Part shown: one piece after another, positions 3,588 to 64,000 of the stretch
How the letters are laid out: each line of letters opens with the position of its first letter
Position numbering within the stretch: position 1 is the first letter of the stretch
Source: Verrucomicrobiales bacterium
GTDB taxonomy: Bacteria; Verrucomicrobiota; Verrucomicrobiia; Verrucomicrobiales; DEV007
NCBI GenBank assembly: GCA_016795505.1
Contig: JAEUHH010000005.1
Span: 1 to 64,000, forward strand
Direction of reading: 5' to 3'
Length of the DNA stretch: 64,000 nt
The notes under the pieces: model-generated
What the model was told of the DNA's origin: nothing
The model's database searches: none
What the model saw: the letters and a program-made list of their open reading frames with translations, nothing else
Made by a program: the position numbers and the translations under genes

Positions 3588-5080
3588 AATACCGGATCGA
3601 AGGCCAGTGGTAGCACCCGGATCAGGACCGCGAGGGCGATGAGGGCCTGCCCACCGAAGAGCAGCCGGTTCGCCAGGGTCGCGTAGTCGGTGCGCTGCAA
3701 CTGGCGGCGGAAACGCTCCGCCACCCAGACAAGCGTGACAGCCACGGGCAGGTAAAGTGCCACCATGAAGCGGTCACCCTTGCCGATGGGCTCGTAAAAG
3801 CCGAAGGCCAGGGCCGAAATGACGAAGGTGCCGGCGGCGAACAGCAGCATCCAGCGCGCGCTCTGCGAGCCGACCGGGTAGATCCAGCGGTCTTTCTGCC
3901 GCGACGCATGCCAGCGCAGCACCGCCATGGCGAGGAACAGGGCCACAAAGCCACCGAGCAGCCAGCCGCGGAAGGGCACCATCTCGCGACCGCTTTTCCG
4001 CCACTCGGCCGGGGCGAAGAAATCATCGAGTTTTTCAAAAGTGCCGTGGCGCAGGCGTTCGAGCGTTTCAGCCAGGCTGTGGGTGCGCAGATAGCGGCCG
4101 GGCGAGGGGCGCTCCGCCTCGGGCAGTCGGGCGAGGGCTTCGGCATTTGGGTAGCGCTGCATGAACTCGGCTCCCTGCGCGAAGTCGTCCATCCACATCC
4201 AGTAGCCGGGATAGCTGTGAAAGGGATCGCCGAAGGCGTCGTTCGCATAGCTCAACCGCGGCCCGGCGGTGGCGAAAAAGGCCATCGCGAGCACGGCGAG
4301 ACCGATGAAATGGTTGGCGAGGCTCCACCGCTCGTCGGCAGGCAGGCTGTCGGGCGACTCAGGCCGCCGTCCCCGCCACCAGTCGGCCACGCAGCGCAGT
4401 GTGGTGACGCCGATGAAGGCCAAGACAAAGGCCTGGATCGACGTTTTGGCGAGATAGCTGAGCCCCAGCAGCACCCCGAGGATTCCATAGAGCCAGAGCG
4501 TGTTGCGCCGGAGCAGGGAGAGGGCGCAGACCCAGGCGAGGAAGAAGCAGATGTAGTAAACCGGCTCCGGCTGGAAATAGACCGACCGCGGCAGCACGGC
4601 CGCGAGTCCACCGGCCAGCAGCAGGGCCACGGCGCTGGGGATGGAAAACGAGCGCGCCGTTACCAGGCCCAGTCCGATGAGGAAGACGCCGGAGAGGATG
4701 AGGTTGAACCACTTCCCCCGCACGAAGTAAGCCTCGTGATCCGCCGTGGCGAAGCGCGCGGCGATCCACGGCCAGAGGGGATTCACCACGCCGTCGGTGT
4801 AGTGGGGAAAGGAGCGCCACAGGGCGGCGGTGACGCTCTCGCCGGGGCCGATGGGTTGCTTTTCCCGCTCCAGGCTGCGCAGGGACATCACGATGTTGTG
4901 CTGCTGGTCCCAGTTGAGCCGGTCCTGGTTGGTCTGGTGGATCAGGTGGGTGCCGAGGTAAAAATACAGCCACACATAGCCGAACAGGAAAATCCCGAAG
5001 GCCAGCCAGGCCTGCCAGCCGCGGAAGGTGGCGGCGGATGACGGCTCCGGCGCGGCGGTGATGGGGGGAGTGTCGTTCAT
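3575..5080 (-). CDS. Polytopic membrane protein, GT-C glycosyltransferase-like
   Basis: A 501-residue protein with roughly ten hydrophobic segments. A first helix near residues 25-45 is followed by a large polar loop containing DRLNWDQQHN and a cluster of helices around residues 125-260, an arrangement resembling dolichyl-phosphate-mannose/ArnT-type GT-C enzymes that transfer sugars from lipid carriers. An acidic residue in the first external loop would fit the catalytic Asp of that fold, but I cannot prove homology by eye. The start codon directly follows the stop of the upstream gene, so the two are probably co-translated. Confidence 0.65.
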   Translation of the reverse strand: MNDTPPITAAPEPSSAATFRGWQAWLAFGIFLFGYVWLYFYLGTHLIHQTNQDRLNWDQQHNIVMSLRSLEREKQPIGPGESVTAALWRSFPHYTDGVVNPLWPWIAARFATADHEAYFVRGKWFNLILSGVFLIGLGLVTARSFSIPSAVALLLAGGLAAVLPRSVYFQPEPVYYICFFLAWVCALSLLRRNTLWLYGILGVLLGLSYLAKTSIQAFVLAFIGVTTLRCVADWWRGRRPESPDSLPADERWSLANHFIGLAVLAMAFFATAGPRLSYANDAFGDPFHSYPGYWMWMDDFAQGAEFMQRYPNAEALARLPEAERPSPGRYLRTHSLAETLERLRHGTFEKLDDFFAPAEWRKSGREMVPFRGWLLGGFVALFLAMAVLRWHASRQKDRWIYPVGSQSARWMLLFAAGTFVISALAFGFYEPIGKGDRFMVALYLPVAVTLVWVAERFRRQLQRTDYATLANRLLFGGQALIALAVLIRVLPLAFDPVFQRG

Positions 5081-5554
5081 TCAGAGGCCCGATTCATATT
5101 TGCCGAGTCGCGACTCGATCTGTTCGGCCGAGCGCGCCAGTTGGGCCTCGGATCGCTTGAATTCGACGAGCGCCGGGGCCTTGGCGGCCGCCGCCCGCGA
5201 ACCAGGCGCCACGACCAACTCCACCCGGCCCACGGCGGCGCCGGGAAAGTCGGTCAGCTTCGCCGGACTGGATGTCTCGAATACGAGCACCTTGGGGCGG
5301 AACCATCGGTCCTGATAGGAGACGCGGACGATCTCCAGGTAGTCGAAGGCTACCGTCTGCGGGGGGATTTTGCGGAAGGCGCGGTCTTTCTCGTCGAAAA
5401 AGAGCTCGGCCCCGTCGCGGCCAAACCGCAGGCAGCCGCCGACGTGCTCGTAGCCGAGGGCGTCGCGGGCGGGGTTTTCGAAATAGATGGCCAGTTCTTC
5501 GCCGATCATGGGGAGGATGACGCCGCCATCGTAAGACGGTTGCCGGGAATTCAC
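5081..5554 (-). CDS. Hypothetical protein upstream of the GT-C-like membrane protein
   Basis: A protein of up to 157 residues without signal peptide or membrane segment, with many beta-prone stretches in the first 110 residues and an Ala-rich C-terminal helix. It has no motif I recognise. The longest frame starts at GTG 5554; an ATG at 5509 (MIGEELAIYF) is an equally reasonable start. Its stop directly abuts the start of the following membrane protein, indicating an operon. Confidence 0.6.
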   Translation of the reverse strand: MNSRQPSYDGGVILPMIGEELAIYFENPARDALGYEHVGGCLRFGRDGAELFFDEKDRAFRKIPPQTVAFDYLEIVRVSYQDRWFRPKVLVFETSSPAKLTDFPGAAVGRVELVVAPGSRAAAAKAPALVEFKRSEAQLARSAEQIESRLGKYESGL

Positions 5555-36047: not shown

Positions 36048-37367
36048 ATGTTCGACGTTCGTGAGAAACCCCAGATGGTCGAGCGCGCCTTCCTCATCGG
36101 CGTCTACTTCGACCGTGCCGACGCGGACGACGCGCGCAGCCTGCTCGAGGAGTTGGCCGAATTGGTCGGCACGCTCGGCATCGGCGTGGCCGGTACGGCC
36201 TGCGTCTTTGTACGTGACCGGAACGCCCGCTATCTGACCGGCTCGGGCAAGTGCATCGAGCTGATCGAGGAGGCTCGGTCGATCGGTGCGGACTGCATCG
36301 TCTTCGACAACGAACTGGCTCCGATGCAGCAGCGGGCCTGGGAGGAGGAGTCGGGCATCACCGTGATCGACCGCGAGGAAGTCATCCTGGATATCTTCAA
36401 AATGCGTGCCCAGACCAGCGAAGCCCGGCTCCAGGTGGAGCTGGCGCGCATGGAGTACTCCCTGCCCCGGCTGGCCCGCATGTGGGGCCACCTCGACCGC
36501 CAGCGCGGCGGTTCCGGCGGGGGCAAGGGCGGCGGCGGCGCGGCCCGTGGCGAGGGCGAGCAGCAGATCGAGGTCGACCGGCGCCTGGCCCGCAAACGCA
36601 TCGACCGGGTGCGCCGCGAGCTGGAGTCTGTGCGCCAGAATCGTGAGACTCAGCGCAAACAGCGCACCGACACGGGCATCCCCCATGCCGCCATCGTCGG
36701 CTATACCAACGCGGGCAAGTCCAGCCTGCTCAACAAGCTGTCCGGATCCGACGTGCTGGCTGAGGACAAGTTGTTTGCCACTCTGGACCCGACCACGAGG
36801 CGCATCCAGTTGCCCGACGGCCAGCCGCTCCTGCTCACCGACACGGTGGGATTTGTCCGCAATCTGCCCCACCGGCTCGTCGAGGCGTTCAAGGCGACGC
36901 TGGAAGAGGCCGTGCTGGCCGATTTCCTCATCCACGTGCTCGATGCCAGCGCGCCGCGGATCTACGACTTCTATCAAACCACGGTGGATGTCCTCGGCGA
37001 ACTCGGCGCCGGCGACAAGCCGACCATCGTGGTGCTCAACAAGATCGACCTGCTCGCCGACGATCCCGACCGGCTCCACGAACTGAAGGCGCACTTCAAT
37101 GGCAGCGCCGTTTTCGCCTCCATCCACACGGGTGAGGGGCTTGATCGCCTGATCGACAAGCTCAGCGACCAACTGGTCCACCGGGTCGGTCGGATGACGC
37201 TGCGCATCCCCCAGGCCCGCCGGGATCTCGTCGCCCTGCTGCACCGCGAAGGCAAAATCCTCAAGGAAGACTACGAGGACAACGACGTGCTGCTCACCGC
37301 AGTGGTGCCGCACGCGATGCGGCATCAATTCGCCCCATTCGAAGAAACGGCCAATGCCGGTGCCTGA
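36048..37367 (+). CDS. hflX: Ribosome-associated GTPase HflX
   Basis: GTPase that splits stalled or hibernating ribosomes. The N-terminal HflX domain has GADCIVFDNELAPMQQR and the Gly-rich linker with the coiled-coil helix (RRLARKRIDRVRRELESVR). G1 is AIVGYTNAGKSSLLNKLSG, G3 LLTDTVGFVRNLPHRLVEAF, G4 VVLNKIDL. 439 residues is normal. The last 127 coding bases belong to a 168-bp sequence duplicated beyond the vapBC module; the gene itself is intact. Confidence 0.94.
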   Translation: MFDVREKPQMVERAFLIGVYFDRADADDARSLLEELAELVGTLGIGVAGTACVFVRDRNARYLTGSGKCIELIEEARSIGADCIVFDNELAPMQQRAWEEESGITVIDREEVILDIFKMRAQTSEARLQVELARMEYSLPRLARMWGHLDRQRGGSGGGKGGGGAARGEGEQQIEVDRRLARKRIDRVRRELESVRQNRETQRKQRTDTGIPHAAIVGYTNAGKSSLLNKLSGSDVLAEDKLFATLDPTTRRIQLPDGQPLLLTDTVGFVRNLPHRLVEAFKATLEEAVLADFLIHVLDASAPRIYDFYQTTVDVLGELGAGDKPTIVVLNKIDLLADDPDRLHELKAHFNGSAVFASIHTGEGLDRLIDKLSDQLVHRVGRMTLRIPQARRDLVALLHREGKILKEDYEDNDVLLTAVVPHAMRHQFAPFEETANAGA

Positions 37368-37408
37368 GCCGTTGCCGGCGAAGCGGGTGCGTTGGGCAGG
37401 TGATGCGG
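37241..37408 (+). repeat. 168-bp direct repeat, copy 1 (3' end of hflX)
   Basis: Matches 38096-38263 at a constant offset of 855 bases with about ten mismatches, nine of them in the first 75 bases. Includes the final codons of hflX and 41 bases after its stop. Confidence 0.95.
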
Positions 37409-37433
37409 GGTTCGGCCCGCTGCGCCCTGCCAT

Positions 37434-37829
37434 TTACCCATACGCTTCCACCAACAGTCCGGGCACGCGGCTGAACTCATCGACATTGTTTGTGACCACA
37501 CCATGGCCGTTGGCCAGGGCGGCGGAGGCAATCCATAAGTCATTGGTGCCGATGAGCTGCCCGCTGGCGGCGAGAGCGCGGTAGATCTCGCCGTAATGCC
37601 ACGAAACTTCGATCGTCCAGGGAAGGATCGGATACGGGCGGCACAATTGTTCCCAGTCCCGCCGAGCGGACGCGGACTGTCCGCAGGCGAGTTCGCCCAC
37701 GATCGTGAAGGTGAGGTAAAACGTGTCGCTGGGGTGAGCAGCGAGAAACGCGTGGGCTTTGCCTGGCACTCCGCGCCGGGCATCACGCTCGGCCGTGATG
37801 ACGAAATTCGTGTCGAGGATCAGGCCCAT
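37434..37829 (-). CDS. vapC: PIN-domain toxin VapC
   Basis: A 131-residue PIN ribonuclease. Acidic site residues: Asp in LILDTNFVI (about residue 6), Glu in IVGELACGQ (about 45), Asp in GTNDLWIASAA (about 97) and Asp in NNVDEFSR. It overlaps the antitoxin gene by 10 bases, the normal order antitoxin then toxin. Located between two copies of the hflX 3' end. Likely target is a tRNA or rRNA as for other VapCs; not determinable here. Confidence 0.9.
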   Translation of the reverse strand: MGLILDTNFVITAERDARRGVPGKAHAFLAAHPSDTFYLTFTIVGELACGQSASARRDWEQLCRPYPILPWTIEVSWHYGEIYRALAASGQLIGTNDLWIASAALANGHGVVTNNVDEFSRVPGLLVEAYG

Positions 37830-38059
37830 GGATCGTCTGGGATCGGGTCATGCTTGGCCGCTGCTTCGACGGACTCCAGATAGCGCTCGCTGACCCCACT
37901 GCCGCCGGCGTCCAAGTAGGCAAGCAGGCGCGCGCCAGTCAGTGGCGCATCGGTGAACTCGGCACGGCGAACGACTTCTGTGAAGGATTCACCAGCCTTT
38001 TTCGCCGCCCGCAGCTTTTCGTAAGCGTCCAACTCCAGCGTGATCGTCTTGGTTGCCAT
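37820..38059 (-). CDS. vapB: VapB-family antitoxin
   Basis: A 79-residue protein starting at ATG 38059. The N-terminal MATKTITLELDAYEKLRAAK is a ribbon-helix-helix-like DNA-binding segment, and the acidic C-terminus (KHDPIPDDPWA) would wrap the toxin. The closest resemblance is to the DUF217-type antitoxins that pair with PIN toxins. Stop overlaps the toxin start, so translation is coupled. Confidence 0.85.
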   Translation of the reverse strand: MATKTITLELDAYEKLRAAKKAGESFTEVVRRAEFTDAPLTGARLLAYLDAGGSGVSERYLESVEAAAKHDPIPDDPWA

Positions 38060-38065
38060 GCACGA

Positions 38066-38094
38066 AAAATACACGAAGTGATCACCCCCTGCAA
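38066..38094 (-). promoter_or_regulatory. Candidate vapBC promoter and operator
   Basis: On the minus strand, TTGCAG (38094-38089) and TATTTT (38071-38066) are 17 bases apart. The palindrome GTGATCAC (38078-38085) lies between them, a natural operator position for autoregulation. The predicted transcription start falls close to the vapB ATG at 38059, so the mRNA could be almost leaderless. Confidence 0.5.
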
Positions 38095-38095
38095 T

Positions 38096-38263
38096 GCACC
38101 GGGAGGGCAAAACCCTCAAGGAAGACTACGAGGACAACGACGTGTTGCACACTCCGGTGATGCCGCACGCGATGCGGCATCAATTCGCCCCATTCGAAGA
38201 GACGGCCAATGCCGGTGCCTGAGCCGTTGCCGGCGAAGCGGGTGCGTTGGGCAGGTGATGCGG
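38096..38263 (+). repeat. 168-bp direct repeat, copy 2 (remnant of hflX 3' end)
   Basis: Second copy of the 37241-37408 sequence, lying after the vapBC module. Its right half also encodes, on the minus strand, the last 28 residues of the sulfotransferase and is almost identical to copy 1; its left half codes for nothing and has diverged. Confidence 0.95.
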
Positions 38264-39232
38264 AGCCGCCGTCCGGCTCAGGCTCGGCTCGTTCCAATGC
38301 GACAGATCGCGGCCGATCAGGGCGCCGAGACGCTCGACTTCGGGGCGGAACTCTTCCACCAATGCCTCGCGGAGCGCGGGATCGATGTCCTTGTCTGACA
38401 GCGGAGGCAGCAGTTTCAGCATCGCGCTCCGATACCACCGGCCGGGCGATTGGATCAGGCGCCCCGCCCAGCGCTCGGTCAGTGACAGGCTTTGGAGTTT
38501 TCGCTTCAGCCGGAATTCCCACAGGTGCGTGCGGGTCAGCTTCGCAGAGTCGTTCTGCCGCTCAATGGAGGACACGGCTTCGGGAGAAATGTCGAGAAAT
38601 GCCGCGATTTCGCCCAGGACCCGGCCCGGATCGGCATTCAGATCCTCCATCAGGAAGACCCGCACCCGCTCGCGGCCGAACACACGGAAGTAACGCTCCA
38701 CAGCCACGGAAAAATGAGCCGCCTGCCGGTAGTTGAGACAGCCTTTGAACCCGCAGTGCCGCGGCAGTTTCTGGCCGAATTGACGCAGCGGCTCCGCTGC
38801 CAGCGCCTCGCGGAAATCGGCGATGGTTTCATGCGCATAGCGCAGGCAGTCGTGATGCCATGAGCGCATCCAGTCCACCGGCGGGCGGAGCAGGATGATG
38901 ATACGCAGATCGGGATCGTCGCCGGAGAAATCCTGGATCCGGCGCGGCGCATTGGGCGACAGCAGGTAGAGCGCCGACACCTCGCCCACCCGGCGCTTGT
39001 CGCGGGCCTCGGCAAACAGGGCTCGGTAGTCTTCCTCCCGGCTCACCCGGATCCAGTCCTCGATCCCCAGATCGTCACTGAAAAACATCGGCTCCTTTTG
39101 CAGCCAGTAGTCTTGGGGACGTTCGGAGTGTGGCAAAAACACCTCAGGATGCGCCAAAAGCGCATGATAAAGGGCCGTGGTACCGCACTTCGGCGCACCG
39201 ACGATGAAAAAATTCGGCTGACAGCTGGGCAT
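38180..39232 (-). CDS. PAPS-dependent sulfotransferase-like protein
   Basis: A 350-residue sulfotransferase. The 5'-phosphosulfate loop is FIVGAPKCGTTALYHALL at the N-terminus, and the 3'-phosphate-binding region is RIIILLRPPVDWMRSWHH with the Arg and a Ser. The C-terminal part is helical as in heparan or polysaccharide sulfotransferases. The final 28 residues (from about APHHLPNAP) are encoded antisense to an hflX-derived duplicate and are probably not part of the fold. Substrate unknown. Confidence 0.85.
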   Translation of the reverse strand: MPSCQPNFFIVGAPKCGTTALYHALLAHPEVFLPHSERPQDYWLQKEPMFFSDDLGIEDWIRVSREEDYRALFAEARDKRRVGEVSALYLLSPNAPRRIQDFSGDDPDLRIIILLRPPVDWMRSWHHDCLRYAHETIADFREALAAEPLRQFGQKLPRHCGFKGCLNYRQAAHFSVAVERYFRVFGRERVRVFLMEDLNADPGRVLGEIAAFLDISPEAVSSIERQNDSAKLTRTHLWEFRLKRKLQSLSLTERWAGRLIQSPGRWYRSAMLKLLPPLSDKDIDPALREALVEEFRPEVERLGALIGRDLSHWNEPSLSRTAAPHHLPNAPASPATAQAPALAVSSNGAN

Positions 39233-59288: not shown

Positions 59289-59428
59289 TTGCGGCGGGAA
59301 TTTTCTGGTTTACCGGAGCCGCATGCCAAATCCATGGACCGGGGTGGGAAACCCCTACACACGCCAGGAAGTCCTCGACCGGCTCCGCGACACGCTCTCG
59401 CGGGGCGAGGCGATCATCGCCGCGGGTG
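59289..59428 (+). repeat. 140-bp direct repeat, copy 1 (5' end of PEP-hydrolase-family gene)
   Basis: Identical, base for base, to 61169-61308 (constant offset 1880). It carries 34 bases of leader plus the first 35 codons of the gene. The sequence diverges abruptly after GCGGGTG. Confidence 0.97.
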
Positions 59429-59475
59429 GTTTGACGGGCGCTACGATTCACGGCAGATTCTCGTTGTCGGCATGA
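59323..59475 (+). pseudogene. Truncated copy of the PEP-hydrolase-family gene, stop overlaps ATPase start
   Basis: The first 35 codons equal those of the intact gene at 61203, then the frame continues for about 15 unrelated codons (GLTGATIHGRFSLSA) and ends at TGA 59473-59475. This TGA forms ATGA with the ATPase start ATG at 59472. The fragment keeps the original upstream side, so it may supply transcription and coupled translation to the inserted ATPase gene; that is inference. Confidence 0.85.
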
Positions 59476-60584
59476 TTAATCGTCTTTACGTCAACAATTT
59501 TCGCTGTCTCGTCGCCTTCGAGACGCAATTCGATTCATTCGGGGTGCTGTGTGGGCCCAACGGATCGGGAAAAAGCTCCGTGTTTGACGCGTTGAGACTG
59601 GTTCAGAGCCTGGCGACCGGCGAGGGCGTGCTGGGAGGGGACGGCGAACGGGATGTACCCCACCTTGACTTCACCAACTGGCTTTCTTCGAAAGTTCAGG
59701 AATTCGAGATCGACGTAGACTCTGGAGGACAGCGCTTTGGCTATGTCCTGCATATCGAGCAAACCGCCGAATTTGAGAAGCCCCGAATCGTGAAGGAACA
59801 GGCCAGCTGTGATGGCAGGCTCCTTTTCGAACGGGATTTGGACGGTGTCAGGTTCCGCACCGAGGGCGGCAGGGAGGTCGGGTTTCCGCTCGACTGGCGA
59901 CAGGCGGCCCTCTCGTCAATCCAGCCGAGAGGGGCGCTCGGAGACATTGAGACTCTCCAACAGACGATGGCCCGTCTCCTCATCCTGCGCCCAAATCCGC
60001 GAGCCATGGAGCGAGAAAGCAAATCAAAGGCGAAGCATCCCGACCTCCATCTGGGCAACTTGACGTCTTGGTACCGTTCACTGGCCCAAGACGACGAATT
60101 TCGCGCTCCGCTCGGAGATGCTCTTCGTGAGGTTTGGCCGGACTTTCGGTCATTTAAACTGGAGGATGTGGGTCTCAACACCGAGGCGCTGCGTCTGCGC
60201 TTTGGCGACTTGGGGGGCAGTGCCTCGAGCGACCTGTTCTTCCATCAACTATCGGATGGTGAAAAGGGCATCATCGGACTCTACATGATTCGCGCCGCCT
60301 TGATGATCGGCGCAGTGGAAACCGTTTTGATTGACGAGCCAGATAACTATGTTGGTCTTCCGGAATTGCAGCCTTGGGTCCTCTCCATGCGAGAACTCCT
60401 CGCAGAGACCCGTCAGGCAGTTTTGATCACTCATCATCCCGAGGTTTTGAGCAGCGCCGGGGCGGCCGCGGGTCGCTATCTCTGGCGGGACAATCACACA
60501 TCCCCCACCCGGATCGGGCCCTTGGATGTGCCGGAAGGGTTGACGCCGGGAGAAGCTGTAGCGAGGGGGTGGGTCCGTGGCTAG
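59472..60584 (+). CDS. AAA ATPase (AAA_15/21, RecF/OLD-like) of a two-gene cassette
   Basis: A 370-residue ABC-type ATPase without TOPRIM domain. It opens with INRLYVNNFRCL; Walker A is CGPNGSGKSS (28-35), the signature QLSDGEKGIIGLY (about 258), Walker B VLIDEPDNYVGLP (about 285), and the His switch LITHHPEVL. Proteins of this build pair with TOPRIM or nuclease partners in defence systems such as PARIS, and relate to Septu and Gabija ATPases. It overlaps the next gene by 8 bases. The start sits in an ATGA junction with a truncated host ORF. Lower codon regularity than its neighbours suggests transfer. Confidence 0.85.
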   Translation: MINRLYVNNFRCLVAFETQFDSFGVLCGPNGSGKSSVFDALRLVQSLATGEGVLGGDGERDVPHLDFTNWLSSKVQEFEIDVDSGGQRFGYVLHIEQTAEFEKPRIVKEQASCDGRLLFERDLDGVRFRTEGGREVGFPLDWRQAALSSIQPRGALGDIETLQQTMARLLILRPNPRAMERESKSKAKHPDLHLGNLTSWYRSLAQDDEFRAPLGDALREVWPDFRSFKLEDVGLNTEALRLRFGDLGGSASSDLFFHQLSDGEKGIIGLYMIRAALMIGAVETVLIDEPDNYVGLPELQPWVLSMRELLAETRQAVLITHHPEVLSSAGAAAGRYLWRDNHTSPTRIGPLDVPEGLTPGEAVARGWVRG

Positions 60585-61140
60585 TCGAACCCGGATCATC
60601 TGTTTGCACGAAGGAGTGAAGGGCAGAAGCATCGATCCCCTTTTCATCAACGTGCTGATCAAAAGACTCAATCCGGCTTGGCTCCGACCCTGGCCGGGCA
60701 GCAACGCGGTCCACACCGTGGATTGTGGAGGAAGGCCAACATTGATGGCCAGATTGCCAGACGAGATCCGGGCTGCGGAGCGGGCGGGAGGCGACACCAC
60801 GGTGATGGTTTGGGCTGATGTGGACGATGACATGGATGGTCCAGAAGCGCTGAAGGACGCATTTTGGAAGGCTTCTGAAGCGGCAGGCATTGCCCGAAAC
60901 CAGTTCGACCGGGTCGTATTCGCCTTCGCAAAAGACAGGCTGGAGAACTGGATCCAGTTCCTCAACGAGGGTGCCACCGACGAATCGCTGGAGGGCCCCC
61001 GCGTCAGGGACGGCGATGCGGTCAGGGCGGCAAGGGCGCTCGCCGACCGATGCTTGCGCGGAGAGACGGGTGGCGACTTTCCGCCCTCTCTGGGTTGGTC
61101 ATGCCATAACTGGAGGGTGTTGCGTCGTCGCATGCCCTGA
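60577..61140 (+). CDS. Putative TOPRIM-like partner protein
   Basis: A 187-residue protein starting at GTG 60577 inside the ATPase 3' end. The first strand ends in an acidic motif RIICLHEGVKG (Glu near residue 11) and a central strand has VMVWADVDDDMDG (Asp cluster near 80), the spacing expected of a small TOPRIM (Glu, then DxD) fold, as in DUF4276 or DUF4435 proteins. The C-terminal part is helical. As effector or regulator of the ATPase it would fit a PARIS-like arrangement, but I cannot confirm the family by eye. Confidence 0.6.
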   Translation: MASRTRIICLHEGVKGRSIDPLFINVLIKRLNPAWLRPWPGSNAVHTVDCGGRPTLMARLPDEIRAAERAGGDTTVMVWADVDDDMDGPEALKDAFWKASEAAGIARNQFDRVVFAFAKDRLENWIQFLNEGATDESLEGPRVRDGDAVRAARALADRCLRGETGGDFPPSLGWSCHNWRVLRRRMP

Positions 61141-61168
61141 AGCAGGAACGGTGAGACGATTTGTCCGA

Positions 61169-61308
61169 TTGCGGCGGGAATTTTCTGGTTTACCGGAGCC
61201 GCATGCCAAATCCATGGACCGGGGTGGGAAACCCCTACACACGCCAGGAAGTCCTCGACCGGCTCCGCGACACGCTCTCGCGGGGCGAGGCGATCATCGC
61301 CGCGGGTG
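61169..61308 (+). repeat. 140-bp direct repeat, copy 2
   Basis: Second, identical copy of 59289-59428, here at the start of the intact PEP-hydrolase-family gene. The gene thus keeps only 34 bases of its original leader and now follows the TOPRIM-like gene by 62 bases. Confidence 0.97.
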
Positions 61309-62072
61309 CGGGCACGGGGATCAGCGCCAAGTTCATCGAACGCGGCGGCGCCGATCTCATCATCATCTACAACTCGGGCCGCTACCGCATGATGGGCCAC
61401 GGCTCCATCGCGGGGATCATGGGCTACGGCGATGCCAATGCCACGGCGATGGAGATCGGGGAGTACGAGGTGCTGCCGGTGGTGAAGGAGATCCCGGTGA
61501 TCTGTGGGGTGCACTGCACCGATCCGCGCCGCCGCATGTGGCACTGGCTGCAGCAGGTGAAGGCGATGGGCTTCTCGGGGATGAACAACTTTCCCACCCA
61601 CACCATCATCGACGGGTCCTTCCGCCAGCAGCTGGAGGAGACCGGCATGGGCACGGACAAGGAAATCGAAACGGTCGCCCTCGCCCGCCGCATGGATCTC
61701 TTCACCATCGTCTACGTGGCTTCGCCGGCCGAGGCCAGGGCCATGGCCGAGGCCGGAGCCGATGTCATCATCGCGCACGTCGGCTGCACCGTGGGTGGAT
61801 CCATCGGCGTGACGAATGCGGCGATGTCGCTCGCGGACGCGGCGGTGGCGACGCAGGCCATCATCGATGCCGGCAAATCGGTGCGCGACGATGTGATCTA
61901 TCTTTCCCACGGTGGCCCCATCGCGACGCCGTCCGATGCGGCCTATATCAACGAGCGCACGGACGCGGTCGGCTTTGTCGGGGCGTCGAGCCTCGAGCGC
62001 ATGGCGGTGGAGGAGTCGCTGACGCAGCTGACCCGCGAGTTCAAGTCGATCCCCCTGCACCGCACGAAGTGA
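61203..62072 (+). CDS. Phosphoenolpyruvate hydrolase-family (TIM-barrel) protein
   Basis: A 289-residue TIM-barrel protein. N-terminal NPYTRQEVLDRLRDTL, the loop IIAAGAGTGISAKFIERGGADLIIIYNSGRYRM, and ADVIIAHVGCTVGGSIG with YLSHGGPIATPSDA near the end are typical of the family annotated as phosphoenolpyruvate hydrolase or TIM-barrel signal-transduction protein. It nearly abuts the Tm-1-like gene; in fungi and bacteria the two domains are often fused or adjacent. Physiological reaction is not established. ATG 61203 is the natural start. Confidence 0.85.
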   Translation: MPNPWTGVGNPYTRQEVLDRLRDTLSRGEAIIAAGAGTGISAKFIERGGADLIIIYNSGRYRMMGHGSIAGIMGYGDANATAMEIGEYEVLPVVKEIPVICGVHCTDPRRRMWHWLQQVKAMGFSGMNNFPTHTIIDGSFRQQLEETGMGTDKEIETVALARRMDLFTIVYVASPAEARAMAEAGADVIIAHVGCTVGGSIGVTNAAMSLADAAVATQAIIDAGKSVRDDVIYLSHGGPIATPSDAAYINERTDAVGFVGASSLERMAVEESLTQLTREFKSIPLHRTK

Positions 62073-63291: not shown

Positions 63292-63426
63292 AGTGAGGCT
63301 TTGGAGGGGAAGGAAAAAGGTGGGAAGGGGGGCGTCCGTGGGGACTTGGGCGTCCGCTCCGCGTTGGCTGGGCGATGGGAGTACGTACGGGGGATGATGG
63401 GGATGTTTGAGGGAAAGGCGTGCTTT

Positions 63427-64000
63427 GGGGAGATTCGCGTCATTCGCGTTCATTCTTTTCCATTCGTGTAAAGGTTTGGAAGATCTGGGGGCCGGGGCTG
63501 GGACCTCGGAAACGCTGGGCGCGACCCGATCCGGCTGGAAGATCGGAACGCGAATGTAAAGGAATGGCCGCGAATGACGCGAATGGTGGATCGAGAGGCG
63601 CGCGTTTGGGGAGATTCGCGTCATTCGCGTTCATTCTTTTCCATTCGTGTTAAAAATTGAAGGGCAGAAAGACCTGGAGCTTGAGCAACTGGGGACTTGA
63701 AAGCCAGCCATGCCGCTCCAACTCGGCTGGATGATCGGGACGCGAATGTAAAGGAATGGCCGCGAATGACGCGAATGGTGGAGGGAAACACACCCTCTGG
63801 GGAGATTCGCGTCATTCGCGTTCATTCTTTTCCATTCGTGTTAAAAATTGAAGGGCAGAAAGACCGGGAGCTTGAGCAACTGGGAACTTGAAAGCCAGTC
63901 ATGCCGCTCCAACTCGGCTGGATGATCGGGACGCGAATGTAAAGGAATGGCCGCGAATGACGCGAATGGTGGAGGGAAACACACCCTGTGGGGAGATTCG
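63427..64000. repeat. Tandem 181-191 bp units each with a long inverted repeat
   Basis: Units begin with GGGGAGATTCGCGTCATTCG at 63427, 63608, 63799 and 63990 (last one cut by the window edge). In each, ATTCGCGTCATTCGCG near the start is matched by its exact complement CGCGAATGACGCGAAT about 135 bases later; the flanking 20 bases pair imperfectly, giving stems of about 37 bases. Units two and three are almost identical, the first is more divergent in its loop. No coding content. The stretch 63292-63426 before it shows nothing recognisable. Confidence 0.85.

Follow-up and report, generated by a model that had tools for sequence, protein, structure and literature searches.

A vapBC module between two copies of the hflX 3' end in a Verrucomicrobiales bacterium, and repeat-flanked toxin-antitoxin pairs at unrelated genes

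Insertions with long target duplications

Insertion with long target duplication was reportedly described for restriction-modification genes by Nobusato et al. in 2000 (Gene 259:99). For genes of this kind such insertions are documented in further work (PMC3874152, PMC1643837), whereby the relevant passage of PMC3874152 gives the target duplications a variable length on the order of 100 bp, and restriction-modification systems are the only ones which that passage names for long target duplication. From Arabidopsis, transposed genes with flanking repeats were described in the corresponding part of another report (PMC2869330). The locus considered here resides in the window, i.e., the whole stretch of 64,000 nucleotides that was analysed, and the insert found at its hflX gene likewise lies between direct copies of its target in this size range (169 nt, 94% identical). 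We regard it as rather probable that a bare vapBC module, consisting of operator, vapB and vapC (about 0.68 kb), inserted at the hflX 3' end and thereby duplicated about 170 bp of its target.

The duplicated hflX end and its insert

The locus comprises the following features.

36048 to 37367, plus strand: hflX, intact, with its last codons in copy 1 (TIGR03156 GTP_HflX, 404 bits, cut-off 217)
37240 to 37408, plus strand: copy 1 of the duplicated target, i.e., the hflX 3' end and 41 nt downstream
37409 to 38094, no strand: insert with vapBC only, 686 bp (678 bp with the gapped extension of the repeat)
37434 to 37829, minus strand: vapC toxin, 131 aa, PIN domain (PF01850, 34.9 bits, cut-off 23.6)
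37820 to 38059, minus strand: vapB antitoxin (VAPB_antitox), 79 aa (PF02697, 34.5 bits, cut-off 27.9)
38060 to 38079, minus strand: TTCGTGTATTTTTCGTGC-like element directly upstream of vapB, as read from the sequences of vapBC relatives
38095 to 38263, plus strand: copy 2 of the target, its hflX frame out of use, its left part decayed and its right part serving as sulfotransferase tail on the other strand
38180 to 39232, minus strand: sulfotransferase, 350 aa (PF00685, 40.6 bits, cut-off 22)

The recurrence of the hflX 3' end at an offset of 855, which had been noticed in the initial annotation, was confirmed as a direct repeat of 169 nt (37240-37408 and 38095-38263) with 10 mismatches, and a gapped alignment with one 2-nt gap lengthens it to 37234-37408 and 38087-38263 (177 columns, 93.2% identity, E about 1e-70), which is far above chance expectation. 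When the 6.55-Mb genome was scanned with positions 37200-38300 nothing else similar was found, and when hflX was compared with its own genome copy 2 was the sole other strong match among the matches listed. An isolated match to the hflX C-terminus in genome G025 was considered as a second such fragment and rejected, as it sits at the end of a contig of 3,067 bases. At two mismatched positions copy 2 carries private changes where hflX is invariant in all 29 relatives, and at a third where the residue is kept in 26 of 29; since copy 1 retains the relatives' letter at these three sites and copy 2 does not, copy 1 is identified as the working hflX end.

That only vapBC lies between the copies, as had been proposed, holds true: the insert contains no recombinase ORF, the stretches outside vapB and vapC being short, and no inverted ends were found at it. 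The antitoxin gene is located upstream and overlaps the start of vapC by 10 nt, and vapBC is predicted to be an ordinary chromosomal type II toxin-antitoxin module, the unusual feature being its seat in the target. Against the curated NCBIfam VapC models the toxin reached 60.6 bits at best (cut-off 140), and neither a named VapC subfamily nor a tRNA target is claimed for it. The TTCGTGTATTTTTCGTGC-like element, common to many vapBC relatives at different loci, is likely to be a promoter or operator, and on the vapB-upstream side the similarity between modules stops about at this element. A foreign composition of the insert was considered and found unremarkable (G+C 61.8% versus 64.3% in window segments, s.d. 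3.8%). Shared cassette ends were likewise rejected, as upstream of vapB only the operator-like element is common to the modules, and downstream of vapC nothing is, except for a zeta-like third gene at some loci. This P-loop gene (MNPTLCILGGCNGAGKTTLARE; named by eye) directly follows vapC in L088, L089, L090, L096, L098, L058 and L107, which suggests a three-gene module. In L155, a 444-nt direct repeat of 83% identity (667-1110 and 4993-5436) has its right copy within a zeta-like gene beside vapC.

The sulfotransferase on the other strand was supposed to take its last 28 residues from copy 2; the tail does derive from there, but comprises 27 residues (324-350) plus the stop (38180-38263). When the flanks were joined by script, hflX and the 350-aa sulfotransferase were both intact and overlapped by 43 nt. 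The proposed overlap of 43 bases before insertion is thus what the joined flanks give, but it was seen in no relative: among the hflX loci of 29 relatives, including the three genomes of the same genus, neither vapBC nor the sulfotransferase was located in the covered DNA around hflX in any (0/29). A further genome, G034, belongs to the same family as the window genome. The relatives' hflX genes possess one 3' end, but other downstream neighbours, and therefore no true empty site at hflX was found among these relatives. Homologues of the sulfotransferase either stop close behind DLSHWNE or continue with unrelated tails, the last 27 residues not being conserved, and a scan of the genomes' contigs gave 6 homologues, none with the shared tail. 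Hence, these residues are to be taken as a lineage-private read-through into hflX antisense. With the overlap seen in no relative and the tail not conserved, the order of events at hflX is one which we infer, namely sulfotransferase read-through first and duplication second.

The divergence of the copies is indeed uneven, as had been reported: 9 of the 10 mismatches fall to the left of the sulfotransferase stop at 38180 (chance 0.011), and six mismatches lie within 16 nt. Coding constraint does not fully explain this, since no mismatch occurs in the 41 nt that follow the hflX stop of copy 1 and carry no hflX codons (chance about 0.010 at the rate of the free part), whereas constraint on the sulfotransferase alone would have let copy 1 drift there. 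Besides constraint, the pattern therefore requires either a clustered change on the left or gene conversion between the two copies. The same clustering would be expected if an incoming vapBC, joined to the hflX end of another strain, had recombined with the resident gene, either by single crossover of a circle or by one homologous and one illegitimate join, so as to give two ends of which one is partly foreign. This homologous integration is judged unlikely, as the changes in copy 2 at residues otherwise invariant in 29/29 hflX resemble decay and not a functional foreign allele.

Recurrence of the layout within the order

Through relatives of vapC, the repeat-flanked toxin-antitoxin layout was found again at unrelated genes, i.e., pnp, a 3-keto-disaccharide hydrolase gene, a 244-aa gene and a sigma factor, and through ParE loci at asparagine synthetase.

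G022: vapBC; repeat of 258 nt, 78%; 3' end of the 3-keto-disaccharide hydrolase gene
G275: vapBC with a 227-aa ORF in the insert; 279 nt, 88.5%; pnp 3' end
G295: insert of vapBC alone; 241 nt, 90.9%; pnp 3' end
G113: vapBC; 73 nt, 92%; 3' end of a 244-aa gene lacking a Pfam match
G076: ParD and ParE between the copies; 104 nt, 98%; asparagine synthetase 3' end
G012 (weaker case): PIN toxin of another kind; 75 nt, 87%; 5' part of a sigma-factor-like gene
G172 (weaker case): vapBC; 73 nt, 81%

Eight other pnp loci (L217-L223 and L226, the count leaving out L224, L225, L227 and L228) have a single 3' end. Among 30 ParE loci examined G076 was clear, and one second match, L241 (parE, 67 nt, 79%), was set aside as doubtful, its repeated stretch resembling a dispersed intergenic motif. 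A pair in L169 (58 nt) consists of the 5' parts of two vapB genes and contains no target copy, and one in L095 (30 nt) is under the 50-nt limit. After the G172 vapBC repeat, a second toxin-like ORF (ParE/RelE-like by eye) is located at 4595-4834 of L174.

For G113 the site without insert could be identified. In G170 and G124 the target gene end is present once and vapBC is absent, the right flank being 94% (G170) and 93% (G124) identical to G113, the left flank 87% (G170), and parts of the intergenic region 82-88% (G124). Next to the target, these genomes differ in the arrangement of their intergenic repeats, and therefore the left side does not match base for base. In the alignment both G113 copies carry derived letters that are missing from the G170 and G124 sites, and hence the duplication arose in the G113 lineage. 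As these siblings possess one copy without vapBC, insertion with target duplication is documented at G113, which, judged by sequence comparison, is direct evidence for this process, though for a sister insertion and not for the one at hflX. The earlier claim that vapBC inserted with a long target duplication is thereby supported, both by the recurrence at unrelated genes and by these empty sites.

The remaining observations on homologous integration are of two kinds. In its favour, the copies at loci other than hflX differ by 2-22%, and in L089-L092 and L185 vapBC lies right after the apparently single 3' end of one gene family, from which it follows that donors with vapBC next to the end of a host gene exist. 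On the other side, both G113 copies share their lineage-private letters, and the process requires vapBC to have been inserted earlier at the same gene in every case, which contrasts with the diversity of the targets. In L089, L090, L091 and L092, vapB follows the 3' end of apparently the same gene family as the G113 target; this gene may be a favoured neighbour, or the insertion may be old and shared.

In a further genome, G091, the 3' end of the G113 target gene is duplicated over 127 nt (L184), and between the copies lie just three tandem units of an intergenic repeat, each about 165 bp, and no toxin-antitoxin; such ends can therefore duplicate without an insert. This, together with the toxin-free repeat pairs of the scan described below, is what would be expected if the hflX end had been tandemly duplicated for unrelated reasons and vapBC had landed between the copies later. 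We consider such an order improbable, since it does not predict a PIN toxin inside half of the stand-alone repeat pairs, and the empty sites of G170 and G124 have one copy.

Genomic islands often use the 3' ends of genes and regenerate them. The copies might hence be the attachment sites of an integrase-borne island, or the target-site duplication of a transposon, whose recombinase was lost. Apart from the insert's lack of a recombinase ORF and of inverted ends, the repeat lengths vary from 73 to 279 nt and the target genes differ between loci; as to integrases, no such ORF is contained in the insert, and in place of a shared attachment core the loci examined have different targets. Such a remnant appears very improbable. 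The least credible account is an artefact of assembly: the genome, metagenome-like, is in 120 contigs, but the site lies well inside a 165-kb contig, the copies are not identical, and independent genomes have the same structure, with an empty site in others.

The frequency of the layout was determined in 68 stretches (1.11 Mb, 71 PIN loci), where a stand-alone pair was defined as a direct repeat of >=50 nt and >=75% identity, with a gap of 250-2000 and no ORF spanning both copies. In a first count 20 of 35 repeat pairs were dropped, as they overlapped with other repeats or one ORF ran across both copies; in the final count gaps >2 kb were dropped as well, which removed the L169 pair, kept at first, and left 12. 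Six of these 12 enclose a PIN toxin, as compared to 0.59 expected with toxins placed at random (P<=2e-5), and, with the window left out, 5 of 10 as compared to 0.57 (P<=4e-5), whereby for G022, G012 and G275 the repeats had been noticed before the stretches were taken, and seven left-out VapC loci were added as an offset. The other 6 of the 12 pairs contain no toxin. In a comparison of loci as returned by the search (+-1.5 kb), 4/35 VapC loci outside the window had a flanking repeat versus 0/59 control loci (Fisher P 0.017; hflX 0/29, sulfotransferase 0/19, PEP hydrolase 0/11); with the window, the values are 5/36 for VapC and 0/17 for other PIN loci of the own genome. The majority of VapC loci thus lack a flanking repeat (31/36 in the similarity set, 17/17 of the other own-genome PIN loci), and such repeat-free modules could be of greater age or have arrived by another route.

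A second bracketing duplication is located within the window.

59289 to 59428, plus strand: copy A, corresponding to the 5' end of a PEP-hydrolase-like gene and matching 61169-61308 at 100% over 140 nt
59429 to 61168, no strand: insert, 1,740 bp
59472 to 60584, plus strand: AAA ATPase (AAA_21), weakly similar to PADLOC HEC-01A, AriA and PDC-M25A
60577 to 61140, plus strand: partner ORF (187 aa) without a match in Pfam, PADLOC or NCBIfam
61169 to 61308, plus strand: copy B, lying in the PEP-hydrolase-like gene at 61161-62072, which is intact (PF09370, 358.9 bits)

The PEP-hydrolase loci of relatives carry no bracketing duplication (0/11), and it is possible that the ATPase and the 187-aa ORF are a new defence pair which inserted in the 5' end of the gene. 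Elsewhere on the contig (L139, 18599-19588, own contig C71) a 98-nt direct repeat of 92% surrounds a lone Uma2-family gene. Counting vapBC, the ATPase pair and Uma2, three bare cassettes thus lie in such duplications within the 124 kb of the contig that were read. A tandem array of units of about 190 bp occupies window positions 63394-64000 and continues into L139.

Mechanism and relation to known systems

Considering the recurrence, toxin-antitoxin pairs of this type probably insert by duplicating the DNA of their landing site. For the joining itself, a break or a pair of nicks with ends staggered over a long distance (tens to hundreds of nt) might capture the module, the ends then being filled in on both sides, or alternatively replication might switch template; either course would leave one target copy on each side of vapBC and would need no dedicated recombinase. 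Ku was not found in the genome, rendering classical bacterial end-joining unlikely and leaving alternative joining or replication. Capture at a staggered break or template switching would be the most likely form of the joining chemistry. That hflX and the sulfotransferase are both intact is explained by each flank having retained a full target copy, whereby the old hflX frame of copy 2 would be decaying while part of it still serves as sulfotransferase tail. The preference for gene ends can be survivorship, because a gene remains whole only if the insertion lies no farther from its end than the length of the duplication. RecA could delete the module cleanly by way of the direct repeats, a loss that toxin addiction would presumably oppose. 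Whether type II toxin-antitoxin modules share with other small cassettes for addiction or defence one recombinase-free mobility, i.e., bare capture at long staggered breaks with 70-280 bp of target duplicated, survival at gene ends and a RecA-reversible state held by addiction, is a tentative extension to which we give slightly less than even credence.

The flanking-copy signature bears on the spread of bare toxin-antitoxin modules that have neither transposase nor integrase, and target duplication explains how they land inside gene ends, even of overlapping genes, without breaking either. Flanking target copies combined with empty sites in siblings allow each insertion to be dated and polarised, and insertions to be counted across genomes.

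As a chromosomal type II module, the vapBC described here conforms to its kind, with a PIN toxin, a VapB-type antitoxin and overlapping genes of which the antitoxin comes first. The Arabidopsis case, as outlined in the part of PMC2869330 that bears on it, resembles the present one in that direct repeats flank a moved gene and derive from a target of which a sibling species has one copy; it is unlike it in being from a plant and without addiction modules, and its authors propose that circles from tandem duplicates insert. Within the passages that a literature search yielded, no description of toxin-antitoxin modules with such target duplications was found. As far as the cited passages on restriction-modification insertions go, these share with the present loci a bare gene pair, direct target copies of variable length and of the order of 100 bp, the lack of a recombinase and a sibling genome with one copy (here G170 and G124 for G113). 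They differ in cargo, which is here VapBC and once ParDE, with no restriction-modification complex in the insert, in host, which is there Helicobacter and here Verrucomicrobiia, and in the length of the copies, which here reach up to 279 nt. According to these sources, long target duplication is known mainly for restriction-modification genes, and toxin-antitoxin cargo appears to be new to it.
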